A stretch of 48,203 nt of DNA from a virus. The notes beneath the pieces are model-generated. The model was given only the letters and a program-made list of their open reading frames with translations. It was not told the DNA's origin and did no database searches. This document shows positions 30,355-45,164 of the stretch, in pieces; position 1 is the stretch's first letter; every line of letters begins with the position of its first letter. The translations under genes were made by a program, and so were the position numbers. The stretch spans positions 1 to 48,203 of IMG/VR virus record IMGVR_UViG_3300019487_000038; one strand, written 5' to 3'.

Positions 30355-30443
30355 TGGCGGAAGGCAGAGGACTCGAACCCCACTCACACTAAAGGAGCAA
30401 TCTGTTTTCGAAACAGTTCCGACGCCTCGCCGGTTTACCTTCC
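30355..30443 (-). tRNA. tRNA-Ser (CGA)
   Basis: Acceptor GGAAGGT/GCCTTCC, discriminator G, encoded CCA. Anticodon loop TTCGAAA gives CGA (codon UCG). Long class II variable arm, T-loop TTCGAGT, D-loop GCGAGGCGT with G18G19. Confidence 0.85.
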
Positions 30444-39550: not shown

Positions 39551-39624
39551 TGGTAGGCGTGAATGGTAACGCTCCATTGCCTCATCAGTGTCAGTGATGT
39601 GTTCTACTTTTATACTACACGCCT
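39551..39624 (-). tRNA. tRNA-Val (GAC) with non-canonical elbow
   Basis: Acceptor AGGCGTG/CACGCCT, discriminator A, encoded CCA. Anticodon arm CATCA-CTGACAC-TGATG gives GAC (codon GUC). T-stem AATGG/CCATT closes the loop AGCGTTA instead of TTCRANT, the same loop as tRNA-Ser(TGA). The D-loop has AAGTA where GGTA is expected (A18 G19). Confidence 0.75.
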
Positions 39625-39629
39625 GTCAT

Positions 39630-39653
39630 CCCGTGTTTAAGCCGGTACACGGG
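39630..39653 (-). other. 7-bp hairpin before tRNA-Val
   Basis: CCCGTGT-ACCGGCTTAA-ACACGGG on the minus strand, between the AlaRS-like stop and tRNA-Val. No T-run follows, so it may be a processing signal rather than a terminator. Confidence 0.4.
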
Positions 39654-39686
39654 AAAAGAAACCACGATACAACCATAAGGTTGCGA

Positions 39687-40478
39687 TCAATCCAACTCGA
39701 TGCCATGTGTGGAATACCACCACTCCTTTGGCATGTTTGTATTTTTGGACAGCAGTTTGTTATACCTTTCGGTCATCCTATTCTGCCGCTCACACTCTTT
39801 TTCAAAGAACGGGTGAGACATCTGTCCACCCATTTTCCAAAGCGACTTCAACAGCCGCTTCAAAACGTATCCTTGACGTTTGTGGGAAGGAATATAGCCA
39901 CTTTGTATGATTTTGTCAATCAATTCCTTTAATGACTCTTCTCGTGTTTTTGGCTTGGTATTGTTGACAACCATATCCAACCGCTCCAATCCAAATCCTA
40001 CGTCAATGCAAGTTCCGAGCGGATTTACGATGTTTCCTATCTCTATGTCATTAACATAGAACTCCGTGCAGTAGCCGCCGATCTCTCCATCCGACCATTT
40101 ACATCCTTCGTCAAGTCGGACTTCGCCGGTGTGAAATGATTTCCACTCTGGCATGTCAGGATGAATGGTTGTGTAACCAACCTTCAATTCCAAATGCTTC
40201 GTCAAGAAGGTCATCCAGAAATCAATTGTTTGATGGACCGACCAATGACGAAATGAGAATGTTCCAATCATGTTGAACAATCCCAAATGAGTTCCGTCTC
40301 CAAGAGATTCTATATCATTCAACCGAATACACGATTGAATGTTACAGACAGTTTGCCCTACCAAAGAACAATCTACAAATTGAGTTTTGTATTTCTGCAT
40401 CCCCGATGGGCAAAACAACGTAGTATCGTCGTAAGGGGTTACAGAAGTAATCGTCTCAAACGGAAGCTTGTTTTCCAA
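39687..40478 (-). CDS. Compact alanyl-tRNA-synthetase-like protein
   Basis: About 263 residues are open from a TTG at 40478. The AlaRS class II catalytic core is visible: PYDDTTLFCPSGMQKYKTQF (motif 1 region), CNIQSCIRLNDIESLGDGTH and LFNMIGTFSFRHWS (motif 2), and GTCIDVGFGLERLDMVV (motif 3, like GMGLERI). The tRNA-recognition, editing and C-Ala domains are absent; AlaRS is normally ~875 residues. Alignment to the AlaRS N-terminus suggests the real protein begins upstream at the ATG at 40540, after GGAGG. That frame (MTQL...) connects only if one base is restored near 40526-40530. It could charge the three phage tRNA-Ala or act as an alanyl-transferring homologue. Neighbours: tRNA-Val(GAC) and KdsC-like. 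Confidence 0.72.
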   Translation of the reverse strand: MENKLPFETITSVTPYDDTTLFCPSGMQKYKTQFVDCSLVGQTVCNIQSCIRLNDIESLGDGTHLGLFNMIGTFSFRHWSVHQTIDFWMTFLTKHLELKVGYTTIHPDMPEWKSFHTGEVRLDEGCKWSDGEIGGYCTEFYVNDIEIGNIVNPLGTCIDVGFGLERLDMVVNNTKPKTREESLKELIDKIIQSGYIPSHKRQGYVLKRLLKSLWKMGGQMSHPFFEKECERQNRMTERYNKLLSKNTNMPKEWWYSTHGIELD

Positions 40479-40553
40479 GCAATACCGTTCATACGATTCA
40501 CCAACATTTAGCAGCCGCCAATTGCGTTTAGCTGTGTCATAGCATCCTCCGTC

Positions 40554-40736
40554 TTATTTTGTGTTTGAAGTCATGTGCCAACTCTTACAGTATTTGCATT
40601 TGTAAGGTCGTAAATCGACGACCCCACCGTAAGAATCAGCTATCCGAATTTGAATATCAATAAGAACATCCCGCTTACTTTCGTAACGATGTTTCCCACG
40701 ACACTCAAATTTTGATGACTTAGCTGTGGTTGACAT
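40554..40736 (-). CDS. Small zinc-ribbon protein
   Basis: The protein has 60 residues from the ATG at 40736 (MSTTAKSSKFECRGKHRYES). It has the pattern C-x-GKxxYxSK followed by YKCKYCKSWHMTS, a small Cys/His zinc motif family frequent in phages. It overlaps the upstream gene by 17 nt and ends just before the Shine-Dalgarno site of the AlaRS-like gene. Confidence 0.65.
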   Translation of the reverse strand: MSTTAKSSKFECRGKHRYESKRDVLIDIQIRIADSYGGVVDLRPYKCKYCKSWHMTSNTK

Positions 40737-41049
40737 GATACTTCCAATAAAATTCACCACCACCCGTTGCCAGTTGATCATGCAACCAATCAACGTTTTT
40801 GAAATACTTATCCAACAAGTCTTTTGCCTCTTTGCTTTCCATCGGAAAGACTTCAATTCCTTTTATGAAGTAATCACGGGCTTCTTGTCTGGACCCAACA
40901 AATCTATCCAAATGTTTTTGTTGAGCTTCGTCGGGAGTGTCGGTCATGGACAATAGAATCTCAAGTGTGAGTCCCTCGCCGGTGGCGAAGTATTCCATGT
41001 AAGTTAAGAACACTTTGTAGTATTCACTCTCTGTAACTTTTTCCGACAT
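40720..41049 (-). CDS. Acidic helical unknown protein
   Basis: The protein has 109 residues (MSEKVTESEYYKVFLTYMEY), acidic and helical, with no recognised motif. First gene of the small operon leading to the AlaRS-like gene. The preceding ~85 bp up to tRNA-Ser(GCT) contain no obvious strong promoter. Confidence 0.58.
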   Translation of the reverse strand: MSEKVTESEYYKVFLTYMEYFATGEGLTLEILLSMTDTPDEAQQKHLDRFVGSRQEARDYFIKGIEVFPMESKEAKDLLDKYFKNVDWLHDQLATGGGEFYWKYHVNHS

Positions 41050-41133
41050 AAACTGGTAGGCGATAAAGGAGTCGCACCTTTGTCTAATCTGTGTGAGAGA
41101 TTTATTCTTCTGTTAAACTAATCGCCCAAAAAT

Positions 41134-41222
41134 TGGCGGAAGGCAGTGGACTCGAACCACATCCCCGTTAAGGGGACAATCTGTTTAGCAAACAGTTACA
41201 ACGCCTCGCTGTTTTACCTTCC
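41134..41222 (-). tRNA. tRNA-Ser (GCT)
   Basis: Acceptor GGAAGGT/GCCTTCC, discriminator G, encoded CCA. Anticodon loop TTGCTAA gives GCT (codons AGC/AGU). Long variable arm TCCCC/GGGGA, D-loop GCGAGGCGT, T-loop TTCGAGT: all canonical. Confidence 0.9.
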
Positions 41223-41338
41223 CTCGGTTGTTTTACTATTGAAAACTCCAAAAGTCACGGATCAAGTTCGCCACAGTTTCTTGCCTATGGATTTAACCAC
41301 TTGGCTCATGGTCGGTGTTGACCGAGTACCCTAGATTC

Positions 41339-41689
41339 TTAATCTCTTAGACCGTCGTATTTGTCCATTGCTTCATGGAACAACCTCAGCGATTCATCCG
41401 TCTGATGTCTATCAAAGTAAGCGTGCCAACAATGATAACAATCGCTTTCGGGCGGACTCACCATGTCATACTCCTTGTGTTTTGGACAATGAGCATTTTC
41501 ACGACGGATTCGTTTACAAGCATCAAACTGAGCTTGCACTTGTTCAATGGTTGGGGGTGGTCGCTTTTTTATGGCTTCCATTTGATCCTTCAACCATTGA
41601 GGAGCGGTTGATACGGGCGGCTTAGACTTTGGAAGGTTGCAATGCTCTTCCAAGTATTCTATGGCGTCACGTAACAAATCTTTCTCCAT
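41339..41689 (-). CDS. Cysteine/histidine-rich unknown protein
   Basis: The protein has 116 residues from the ATG at 41689 (MEKDLLRDAIEYLEEHCN). A proline-rich middle (KPPVSTAPQWLK) is followed by a CPKH...CYHCWHAYFDRH segment that may bind zinc. The ATG lies 6 nt after the 3' end of tRNA-Val(TAC), so the tRNA forms the 5' part of the shared transcript. The open frame upstream runs through the tRNA and is rejected. Confidence 0.6.
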   Translation of the reverse strand: MEKDLLRDAIEYLEEHCNLPKSKPPVSTAPQWLKDQMEAIKKRPPPTIEQVQAQFDACKRIRRENAHCPKHKEYDMVSPPESDCYHCWHAYFDRHQTDESLRLFHEAMDKYDGLRD

Positions 41690-41695
41690 ACAAAG

Positions 41696-41770
41696 TGGTG
41701 CGGGATAGAGGAATCGAACCCCTTCTTTCTCCGTGTAAGGGAGACTCGCTACCGTTACAATCAATCCCGC
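41696..41770 (-). tRNA. tRNA-Val (TAC)
   Basis: Acceptor GCGGGAT/ATCCCGC, discriminator A, encoded CCA. Anticodon arm TCTCC-CTTACAC-GGAGA gives TAC. Canonical D- and T-loops. Confidence 0.92.
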
Positions 41771-41773
41771 AGA

Positions 41774-41878
41774 TGTTGCTTACGCAGATTTGAACCTGCC
41801 CCGAATGTCGCTTGCATTCTGTGATAATCGGCTACGACCTACCATTTTCATGGTTCTTTGCCGGACTCTATCAGCAAC
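41774..41878 (-). ncRNA. tRNA-like element or tRNA remnant
   Basis: The ends pair as GTTGCT/AGCAAC and a T-arm-like GCAG-GTTCAAAT-CTGC precedes the 3' strand. An arm GAATG-CAAGCGA-CATTC lacks U33, and an extra ACCAT-GAAA-ATGGT hairpin replaces a normal D-arm. At about 105 nt it is too long for this to be a standard tRNA. Either a decayed tRNA or a tRNA-mimicking RNA. Confidence 0.4.
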
Positions 41879-41885
41879 GTTAAAT

Positions 41886-41973
41886 TGGCGGTAGGCTGAG
41901 GTAACGCTCCCCACACCCCGAAGGGTGCAATCGGTTTTCAAGACCGTTCCGTGGCTTCCACAGTTAACCTACC
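41886..41973 (-). tRNA. tRNA-Ser (TGA) with non-canonical elbow
   Basis: Acceptor GGTAGGT/GCCTACC, discriminator G, encoded CCA. Anticodon loop CTTGAAA gives TGA. Long variable arm CACCC-TTCG-GGGTG. T-stem TGGGG/CCTCA closes loop AGCGTTA, not TTCRANT. The D-loop reads TGGAAGCCA where the other Ser tRNAs have GCGAGGCGT, so G18 becomes A18. Confidence 0.78.
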
Positions 41974-44092: not shown

Positions 44093-44225
44093 TGTCTATC
44101 TCTTGGAGGACTCGAAAGAAGAAATAGAAAAGGGAAATTGGAAAAAAGATGACAAAGAGAATGAACGTGAAAAGTCCACCATTGTCAACGACTTTCTTGG
44201 CTGCGGTCAATAACTTGTTTTCCAT
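44085..44225 (-). CDS. Very small membrane protein
   Basis: The protein has 46 residues with one central hydrophobic helix (LFTFILFVIFFPISLFYFFF) between a basic amphipathic N-terminus and an acidic end. It overlaps iscU by 19 nt upstream and the next gene by 8 nt downstream. Function unknown; the small size fits regulatory or lysis-related peptides. Confidence 0.5.
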   Translation of the reverse strand: MENKLLTAAKKVVDNGGLFTFILFVIFFPISLFYFFFRVLQEIDNE

Positions 44226-44629
44226 AAACTTGGCTGGTCATCAAGGACTCGAACCTTGACTAAGAGGTCCAAAGCCGCTTTTAGGGCTTCTTCAGCAAGA
44301 ACGGAACAGTGAATTTTAACGGGAGGGAGTCCGCCGAGTGCATCGACGACTTCTTGGTTGGAGAAATTGTTCAATTCTTCAAGCGTACGACCTTTGACAA
44401 GTTCCGTAGCCATTGAACTGGCGGCGATTGCCGAGCCACATCCAAATGTCTTGAATCGGGCATCAACGATCTTTCCGTCTTTGACTTTGATTGACATCTT
44501 CATGATGTCTCCACAAGCGGCGGCACCTACTTCTCCAATTCCATCGGCGTCTTTAATGTCGCCCATGTTCCTTGGATGCATAAAGTGATCCATCACTGTG
44601 TCATTGTAGAGAGTATATCCTTCACTCAT
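44207..44629 (-). CDS. iscU: Iron-sulfur cluster scaffold IscU/NifU-N
   Basis: The protein has 140 residues. The scaffold cysteines are present: C39 in AAACGDIM (with D41), C64 in FGCGSAIA and C108 in KIHCSV, with H107. The LPPVK motif (101-105) recognised by the HscA chaperone is also present. IscU builds [2Fe-2S]/[4Fe-4S] clusters from IscS sulfur and hands them to apo-proteins. No cysteine desulfurase is seen here, so host partners would be needed. The gene lies between tRNA-Arg and the small membrane protein. Confidence 0.92.
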   Translation of the reverse strand: MSEGYTLYNDTVMDHFMHPRNMGDIKDADGIGEVGAAACGDIMKMSIKVKDGKIVDARFKTFGCGSAIAASSMATELVKGRTLEELNNFSNQEVVDALGGLPPVKIHCSVLAEEALKAALDLLVKVRVLDDQPSLWKTSY

Positions 44630-45089: not shown

Positions 45090-45164
45090 TGGTAGCCTAC
45101 AAGGGTTCCGACCCCTTTTCTCAAGCTTGAAAGGCTTGTGTCCTAGCCACTAGACGAGTAGGCC
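45090..45164 (-). tRNA. tRNA-Glu (TTC) with altered T-loop
   Basis: Acceptor GGCCTAC/GTAGGCT, discriminator A, encoded CCA. Anticodon arm CAAGC-CTTTCAA-GCTTG gives TTC. T-stem AAGGG/CCCTT closes loop GTCGGAA (G54 and G58 instead of T54 and A58). The D-loop keeps GG. Confidence 0.82.

Follow-up and report, generated by a model that had tools for sequence, protein, structure and literature searches.

Two tRNA genes in the sequence of a large phage, tRNA-Val(GAC) and tRNA-Ser(TGA), carry matched substitutions at the elbow. The best explanation, to which we give a probability of about two in three, is that both are decoding tRNAs whose compensated elbow pairs keep the L-shape, with independence from elbow modification as the most likely advantage. 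The window, that is the whole stretch of DNA analysed, comprises 48,203 nucleotides (IMG/VR record IMGVR_UViG_3300019487_000038).

tRNA genes with altered elbows in the window

The tRNA-Val(GAC) and tRNA-Ser(TGA) genes were found where the original prediction had placed them, with the T-loop AGCGTTA, A18 G19 and an encoded CCA, all on the minus strand (Table 1). In both, A18/G55 and A54/T58 stood in place of the canonical letters and only G19-C56 was retained. The T54 and pseudouridine 55 modification sites are thus lost, as had been predicted, this being a direct consequence of the AGCGTTA sequence.

Table 1. Positions of tRNA genes and elbow elements in the window
Feature	Position	Strand	Details
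tRNA-Val(GAC), recoded elbow	39551..39624	minus	CCA encoded 39551-39553; Rfam, model R1, stems
tRNA-Val(GAC) T-loop AGCGTTA	39567..39573	minus	A54 G55 C56 G57 T58 T59 A60
tRNA-Val(GAC) D-loop AAAAGTA	39605..39611	minus	A18 G19
tRNA-Ser(TGA), recoded elbow	41886..41973	minus	UUCG tetraloop on long variable arm; CCA encoded; R1, fold, stem scan
tRNA-Ser(TGA) T-loop AGCGTTA	41902..41908	minus	
tRNA-Ser(TGA) D-arm triloop AAG	41955..41957	minus	A18 G19 at tip of 6-bp D-stem
tRNA-Val(CAC)	41054..41127	minus	18/55 swap only: T-loop TGCGACT, D-loop AACAGAA; R1 55.7 bits
tRNA-Glu(TTC)	45090..45164	minus	54/58 variant only: GTCGGAA, G54/G58, G18 G19 kept; R1 59.8 bits
tRNA-Val(TAC)	41696..41770	minus	canonical elbow TTCGATT, GG; internal comparison
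tRNA-Ser(GCT)	41134..41222	minus	6-bp D-stem, triloop AGG; corresponds to the Ser(TGA) D-arm, with G18 and canonical T55
tRNA-Ser(CGA)	30355..30443	minus	6-bp D-stem, triloop AGG; canonical T-loop TTCGAGT

Good acceptor, anticodon and T-stems had been claimed for both genes. In Val(GAC) all three were fully paired (acceptor AGGCGTG/CACGCCT 7/7, anticodon CATCA/TGATG 5/5, T-stem AATGG/CCATT 5/5). In Ser(TGA) the claim held for the acceptor (GGTAGGT/GCCTACC, 7/7 including one wobble) and the T-stem (TGGGG/CCTCA, 5/5 including one G-T) but not for the anticodon stem, which paired at 4/5 positions with an A27/A43 mismatch. The anticodon loops, CTGACAC in Val(GAC) and CTTGAAA in Ser(TGA), each had U33, a purine at 37 and a sense-codon anticodon. 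The predicted D-loop change likewise needed correction for Ser(TGA), since its A18 and G19 lie in a triloop on a 6-bp D-stem and not in a normal D-loop. The Ser tRNAs with this D-arm are not tRNA-Sec, their anticodons being TGA, GCT and CGA and not UCA; the best score of the window Ser tRNAs against RF01852 was 34.8 bits, with a family cut-off of 47.

ARAGORN called neither gene. Val(GAC) was recognised by Rfam RF00005 (49.1 bits against a gathering score of 29) and Ser(TGA) was not; gene finders lean on the invariant elbow letters, and the latter was missed by both programs. We used a covariance model (R1) built from 54 mixed-elbow phage tRNAs, from which the window sequences were excluded. 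When the whole window was searched with this model, Val(GAC) was recovered with 57.1 bits (E 1.1e-17), and Ser(TGA) with 32.7 bits (E 3.8e-9). A strict stem scan gave no matches in 4 window shuffles, and in a looser scan Ser(TGA) scored 42 against a maximum of 35 in shuffles of 19 kb (n=3). The heptamer TAACGCT as such was rejected as evidence, occurring 5 times in the window against 3.2 expected; the significance of the AGCGTTA loops lies in their placement within tRNAs and in the coupling described below.

Two variant tRNAs had been predicted. Both are real, but the set is larger: Val(CAC) has A18 and G55 with T54-A58 unchanged, and Glu(TTC) is also variant. The third Val isoacceptor, Val(TAC), has a canonical elbow, so that the window mixes swapped and canonical tRNAs, as other phages do. 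Absence from relatives would have counted against the prediction, yet several tRNAs of LR745206, a huge phage that is related, have A54/T58. The D-arm GTATAAAAGTAGAACA and AGCGTTA loop of Val(GAC) recur in a Val(GAC) on a different phage contig (L170). When Val(GAC) was compared with named phages by BLAST, the matches were all short and due to chance; a query with Ile(GAT) succeeded. No IMG/VR relatives were found through the AlaRS-like protein, and the nearest contig by NifU (L032) had a single tRNA above the cut-off.

Coupling of elbow pairs in phage tRNAs

Statistics were taken from an elbow-blind scan, since GG and TTC had raised the score in the first scan, which was dropped for this purpose. 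The elbow-blind scan yielded 1,664 unique phage tRNAs from 183 contigs and no matches in 340 kb of shuffled sequence. Among the T55 tRNAs 1454 had GG and 5 had AG, and among the G55 tRNAs 133 had AG and 8 had GG. Single-changed intermediates, AG without GG, were thus very rare (5/1460 T55 tRNAs). G55C56 was consistent with A18 in 141 of 142 cases, against a permuted mean of 34 and a maximum of 46. T56 occurred with A19 in 38 of 38 (permuted mean 9, maximum 16), and G56 with C19 and A56 with U19 in five of five each, although classes of 2-5 are on their own too small for significance. At positions 54 and 58 the counts over the same 1,664 tRNAs were T-A 1338, A-T 184, A-A 37, G-G 24 and C-A 20, and A60 was usual when position 54 was A or G.

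These coupled changes are compensated evolution of a retained fold and not decay, as the original prediction had held for its two unrelated isoacceptors. It had described the 18/55 and 54/58 swaps as fitting each other with G19-C56 kept. Coupling was found within each pair, but the pairs are separate modules. The ATCGTTA class has 54/58 swapped with T55 and G18 kept, the TGCRANT class has 18/55 swapped with T54-A58 kept, and the 19-56 position is switchable as well, all four Watson-Crick pairs occurring there in phage tRNAs. Some tRNAs share up to 96% identity outside the elbow and yet differ within it by whole switched pairs, for example AAAGGTA/ATCGTTA against AAAAGTA/AGCGTTA in Val(TAC).

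Decay of pseudo-tRNAs, or assembly error, would be compatible with the failure of ARAGORN on Val(GAC) and of both standard finders on Ser(TGA), and with the A27/A43 mismatch. Taken generally, this account is refuted, and for the two window genes its probability is very small. Neither gene showed the broken stems, lost CCA or uncoupled substitutions of a pseudogene, and their anticodon loops are intact. A model built without window sequences found both at small E-values, and the same coupled combination occurs in many phage tRNAs and is identical across SAR11 genomes.

Neutral drift, in which compensated pairs arise in phage tRNAs under weaker constraint through brief intermediates and bring no benefit, wherever synthetase and EF-Tu tolerate them, is a serious competitor, though we put it below even odds. 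All isosteric options have been sampled, including the four pairs at 19-56, and swapped and canonical tRNAs are mixed in phages and in this window. The dependence of the rates on amino acid may also mirror synthetase tolerance (Pro, Leu, Gln, Ser and Arg being low). Against drift stand the rarity of single-changed intermediates, the recurrence of the AGCGTTA combination with 22 anticodons and three contigs (L118, L167 and L191) in which nearly all tRNAs are switched.

Escape from tRNA nucleases had been suggested as a purpose of the altered elbow, which would conceal phage tRNAs from host nucleases or elbow-reading defence proteins. The letters that changed are the ones on which base-specific readers would depend. 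Phages commonly show the trait, and few cases came up in a small cellular sample. The classic targets of anticodon nucleases are Tyr, Lys, Arg and Leu tRNAs. Rates of 54/58 switching were high in Asp (0.35), His (0.33), and Glu and Ile (0.26), but low in those very targets (Tyr 0.03, Lys 0.09, Arg 0.03, Leu 0.01). This isoacceptor bias is not an artefact of the search seeds, as it remained with one seed per contig removed. Moreover, SAR11 chromosomal tRNAs share the swap, so that escape from phage defence is not an obvious reason there, and no elbow-specific nuclease was identified. The suggestion was thus not borne out, and we consider such escape improbable.

Swapped tRNAs in bacterial chromosomes

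The chromosomes of SAR11, a group of ocean bacteria, bear swapped tRNAs, and the Val(GAC) loop AGCGTAA was identical in 15 genomes. In one SAR11 genome (G005) the sole Phe and His tRNAs detected were A18/G55 and, being the only ones detected, would have to decode there. The count of AGCGTWA in alphaproteobacteria was not above that of a reversed-pattern control, and nine matches were kept solely on the ground that a complete tRNA could be read from each. The cellular cases come from two lineages only.

A charged tRNA with a job outside translation, such as an amino-acid donor that avoids EF-Tu, has a precedent in the staphylococcal tRNA-Gly of cell-wall synthesis, which has elbow changes. We regard this as highly improbable for the window genes, given that swapped tRNAs cover most amino acids and that the Phe and His tRNAs of G005 would have to decode.

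Modification enzymes

TruB requires the motif 53-GUUYRANYC-61 (PMC7912444), which both AGCGTTA and ATCGTTA break. TruB was missing in 29 of 32 SAR11 genomes and found in 58 of 60 alphaproteobacteria sampled class-wide. Each of the 29 genomes examined from the two swapped-tRNA bacterial groups lacked TrmFO, and 27 of them themselves bear a swapped tRNA; TruB was present in 7 genomes with swapped tRNAs. The comparison is confounded by small genomes. TrmFO was found in 6/6 and in 34/60 other alphaproteobacteria; its loss, seen in the remaining 26/60, also tracks genome reduction.

Loss of TruB as the sole cause of the swap was ruled out, since swapped tRNAs coexist with the enzyme: three genomes (G025, G042 and G050) have a swapped Val tRNA together with TruB, and four genomes with a swapped Thr(GGT) also have it. 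Conversely, two genomes (G107 and G111) were without TruB and TrmFO, yet their Val(GAC) was canonical. None of 15 phage records encoded TruB. Swapped tRNAs occur in named phages, some of which infect E. coli, Pseudomonas and mycobacteria, hosts in which TruB is expected; Pseudomonas phage 16Q and Mycobacterium phage MrMagoo are examples. On gene content, enzyme absence is suggestive of a modification-free elbow, and the link is not strict.

Comparison with known tRNAs

G18, G19, U54, U55, C56 and A58 are textbook invariant positions of tRNA. The variant tRNAs share with the canonical bacterial elongator tRNA (RF00005) the cloverleaf, stem lengths, U33, purine 37, encoded CCA, G19/C56 and purine 57. 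They differ in that G18, U54, U55, A58 and pyrimidine 60 have become A18, A54, G55, U58 and A60, in a coupled manner. The eukaryotic initiator tRNA-Met has an A54-A58 pair (PMC7912444); it thus shares A54 for U54, and the phage class ATCGAAA has its A54/A58. The phage tRNAs, in contrast, are elongators for many amino acids and not specific to initiation; A54/U58 predominates among them, often combined with A18/G55. Two further natural kinds, tRNA-Pyl and type II mitochondrial tRNAs (PMC7609411), also lack G18 G19 and U54 U55 C56, but they lose or replace the contact between D-loop and T-loop, whereas the phage tRNAs keep it by matched substitutions within a standard cloverleaf.

A single-pair case is tRNA-Ile1(GAU) of bacteriophage T5, with A19 matched to U56 and G18 kept. 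There 19-56 alone is switched and 18/55 and 54/58 are canonical; according to its GenBank record an anticodon-changed form is an amber suppressor. Some phage tRNAs evade host nucleases through changes in the anticodon loop. Conserved sites are altered in both kinds, in the elbow here and in the anticodon loop there. No published description of this elbow re-coding was found in a literature search whose coverage was thin for subscription journals.

Proposed mechanism and significance

Under the preferred reading of compensated, decoding tRNAs, the elbow would consist of three contacts. The first, 19-56, would be G-C or alternatively A-U, C-G or U-A. The second would join 18 with 55, as G with U or A with G, and the third would be the T-loop closing pair 54/58, as U-A or as A-U, G-G, A-A or C-A. 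Val(GAC) and Ser(TGA) would combine A18/G55 with A54/U58, contacts whose exact geometry we infer. Elbows rewritten in this way would be without the letters that the enzymes require, namely U54 (TrmA/TrmFO), U55 and its motif (TruB), A58 and G18. The most likely gain would be folding and function without waiting for, or relying on, elbow modifications, which we propose as the probable cause of the swaps. The swapped tRNAs are probably expressed and charged.

More broadly, and only tentatively, the elbow could be regarded as a rewritable three-pair code. Its alternatives in phages and SAR11 would free tRNAs from U54/U55 modification, and the universal letters would owe more to the modification machinery than to what translation requires.

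The tRNA sets of phages and of some bacteria may be under-counted. The compensated alternatives form a large natural set in which every elbow contact is backed by direct evidence from genetics, and the swapped tRNAs are ready material with which to probe the purpose of m5U54, of pseudouridine 55 and of elbow-reading enzymes. Since named phages of laboratory-type hosts have the variants, such questions can already be addressed. The findings suggest that the shape of tRNA can persist without letters and chemical marks that were supposed to be fixed.

Variant elbows in the window

The window, an IMG/VR virus record of 48,203 bases, carries about 20 dispersed tRNA genes on the minus strand. The tRNA-Val(GAC) and tRNA-Ser(TGA) genes, when read out, proved to share A18 and G19 in the D-loop and A54, G55, C56, G57, T58, T59 and A60 in the T-loop, as the original prediction had stated. 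Its description of a coordinated swap holds in that the paired positions change together, but 18/55 and 54/58 are separate modules, since mixed states occur within the one window: tRNA-Val(CAC) has A18/G55 yet an unchanged T54-A58, and tRNA-Glu(TTC) has G54/G58 yet an unchanged G18. The third valine isoacceptor, Val(TAC), has a canonical elbow.

Sequence segments and coordinates of features in the window and in one cellular contig
Feature	Position (strand)	Segments or content
tRNA-Val(GAC), 5′ half		AGGCGTG TA GTATAAAAGTAGAACA CATCA CTGACAC TGATG
tRNA-Val(GAC), 3′ half, after TGATG		AGGC AATGG [AGCGTTA] CCATT CACGCCT A CCA
tRNA-Ser(TGA), 5′ half		GGTAGGT TA ACTGTGGAAGCCACGGA ACGGT CTTGAAA ACCGA
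tRNA-Ser(TGA), 3′ half, after ACCGA		TTGCACCCTTCGGGGTG TGGGG [AGCGTTA] CCTCA GCCTACC G CCA
tRNA-Ser genes	30355-30443, 41134-41222, 41886-41973 (-)	D-arm tRNA-Sec-like; 30355-30443 matched the tRNA-Sec model below threshold only
tRNA-like stretches between tRNA genes	41773-41880, 41236-41335 (-)	T-arm-like GGTTCAAAT, terminal GTTGCT/AGCAAC, motif GCCAAGTGGTTAA
AlaRS-like protein, 263 aa	39687-40478 (-)	match confined to the first part of the alanyl-tRNA synthetase family (PF01411, residues 11-100)
NifU/IscU-type iron-sulfur scaffold gene	44207-44629 (-)	PF01592, E 3.7e-45
Dense tRNA island, cellular contig L434	87-1018	Arg tRNAs with T56 and G56 elbows (CCG TTTGACT, CCT TTGGATT)

In three serine tRNAs of the window the D-stem has 6 bp and its loop three bases: AAG in Ser(TGA), and AGG in both Ser(GCT) and Ser(CGA). 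As the two T55 serine tRNAs have xGG and the single G55 one has xAG, the 18/55 coupling persists in this compact arm. Contigs L141, L243 and L269 are among the other phage contigs with similar serine tRNAs.

The two tRNA-like stretches were scored by no model and are possibly interrupted or decayed tRNAs. The AlaRS-like protein has a relative in the huge phage LR745206 (57% identity), and all three tRNA-Ala genes of the window (GGC, TGC and CGC) have the G3-U70 pair. The NifU/IscU-type gene is 87% identical to the copy on viral contig L032, and genes of this type are widespread on viral contigs.

Val(GAC) and Ser(TGA) are the product of neither chance nor decay. A strict stem scan gave no matches in four shuffles of the window, and in a looser scan Ser(TGA) scored 42, and no score in three 19-kb shuffles exceeded 35. 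In the window, ARAGORN detected neither tRNA and Rfam did not detect Ser(TGA). A covariance model (R1), trained without any window sequence on 54 mixed-elbow phage tRNAs, recovered Val(GAC) at 57.1 bits (E 1.1e-17) and Ser(TGA) at 32.7 bits (E 3.8e-9).

Variant T-loops in other viruses

Relatives were checked, and several tRNAs with A54 T-loops were present in the related phage LR745206 (634,780 bases, 68 tRNA matches). ATCGTTA was found there in His, Phe, Ile(TAT) and Thr(TGT), and ATCGTAA in Asn and Ile(GAT). Its Ser(TGA) has ATCGATA with G18 G19, and a T-stem identical to that of the window Ser(TGA). In most tRNA genes of this phage (L112-L116) the discriminator base is followed by CAA, not CCA; their 3′ ends must therefore either be processed by trimming and rebuilding or be read in another way.

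Searched as patterns in IMG/VR, GG-AGCGTTA-CC-N11-CCA and GG-ATCGTTA-CC-N11-CCA gave at least 120 stretches apiece. In a first scan of the resulting contigs, 22 anticodons were represented among the AGCGTTA matches listed and 18 among those for ATCGTTA. Nearly all tRNAs in phage contigs L167, L191 and L118 had G55/A18, and some had C19-G56 or U19-A56.

Among named phages, Pseudomonas phage 16Q has AGCGTTA/AAAAGTA in Ile(GAT), AGCGTAA in Pro(TGG) and an A19-U56 switch in Ala and Cys. In Mycobacterium phage MrMagoo the His tRNA has ATCGTTA and the Glu tRNA ATCGTAA, and in Escherichia phage tuntematon the Met tRNA has ATCGAAA. The T5 tRNA-Ile1(GAU) has G18 A19 with U56. The T5 record annotates this tRNA with a replaced anticodon as an amber suppressor. 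On the strength of that annotation, there is experimental evidence for a switched 19-56 pair being functional in translation.

Coupling of the elbow pairs

Because bias was to be avoided, the contigs were rescanned reading only stems, U33 and CCA and ignoring D-loop and T-loop letters. This recovered 1,664 unique tRNAs from 183 contigs, in which variant frequencies, but not coupling, are inflated by contig selection through two variant T-loops; 340 kb of shuffled sequence gave no matches. T55 was partnered in the D-loop by GG in 1454 tRNAs and by AG in 5, and G55 by AG in 133 and by GG in 8; three or more of these eight read AGG. G55C56 tRNAs were consistent in 141 of 142 cases (maximum 46 with permuted D-loops), and all 38 T55T56 tRNAs had G18 A19 (maximum 16). 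C19 accompanied G56 in 5/5 tRNAs and U19 accompanied A56 in 5/5; neither class is significant alone, and together they complete the Watson-Crick set at 19-56.

At 54/58, T-A was found 1338 times, A-T 184, A-A 37, G-G 24 and C-A 20, with few others. Where position 54 was A or G, position 60 was mostly A, and purine 57 was retained with almost no exceptions. Some tRNAs with as much as 96% identity to one another beyond the elbow differed by whole switched pairs, as in Glu(TTC) with TCTGGTGA/ATCGTAA versus TCTAGTGA/GGCAGAA, and switching has thus occurred repeatedly. An elbow-blind Met seed found variants in 6 of 241 phage and 3 of 112 cellular tRNAs.

Partial precedents are known, namely A54-A58 in eukaryotic initiator tRNA (PMC7912444) and missing conserved elbow letters in tRNA-Pyl and mitochondrial tRNAs (PMC7609411). 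For phages and SAR11, a compensated elbow code was not described anywhere in the literature searched, which included few subscription papers.

Swapped tRNAs in cellular genomes

One elbow-blind cellular match was a tRNA-Val(GAC) with AGCGTAA adjoining a sigma-70 gene in a Pelagibacteraceae genome. Of the 118 family genomes, 15 carried the identical gene and others carried variants of it; the AGCGTTA variant was found in genomes G042, G018 and G029, and Val(GAC) was canonical in G107 and G111. In genome G005, the sole Phe (TGCGAAT) and sole His (AGCGTAA) tRNAs found have A18/G55. Because this bacterium needs both, we infer that its tRNAs must be able to decode with the swapped elbow. Across 385 alphaproteobacteria, AGCGTWA in a full tRNA was restricted to the Pelagibacteraceae cases and to the Thr(GGT) tRNA, as AGCGTAA, of four genomes of about 1.4 Mb. 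The tRNA island of contig L434 is perhaps a mobile element.

Modification enzymes and a possible cause of switching

Escape from host nucleases had been proposed as an advantage of the variant elbow. With seeds removed, switch rates were high for Asp (0.35), His (0.33), Glu and Ile (0.26) and Phe (0.25), and low for Leu (0.01), Pro and Gln (0) and Ser, Arg and Tyr (0.03). Constraints from synthetases or recognition account for these rates better than would escape from anticodon nucleases, whose classic targets are Tyr, Lys, Arg and Leu.

The predicted loss of the T54/psi55 modification sites agrees with the loop sequences. A54 removes the m5U54 site, and AGCGTTA and ATCGTTA both break the motif on which TruB acts, 53-GUUYRANYC-61 (PMC7912444). 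TruB was absent from 29 of 32 SAR11-family genomes versus 2 of 60 alphaproteobacteria sampled across the class, and no TruB gene was found in the 15 phage records checked. TrmFO was absent from all 29 tested genomes of the two cellular groups, 27 of them with a swapped tRNA; among other alphaproteobacteria it was absent from 26 of 60, and from none of 6 with large genomes. Within the SAR11 family (G002-G115) TrmFO was absent in 25/25 tested genomes, though the conserved T-loop is the target of both TruB and TrmFO. The association has exceptions: in seven genomes swapped tRNAs coexist with TruB, and G107 and G111 lack both TruB and TrmFO, yet their Val(GAC) is canonical. Both cellular lineages also have small genomes. 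The absences suggest that rewritten elbows arise where modification has been lost or is unreliable, and a phage making many tRNAs fast would be a case of unreliable modification.
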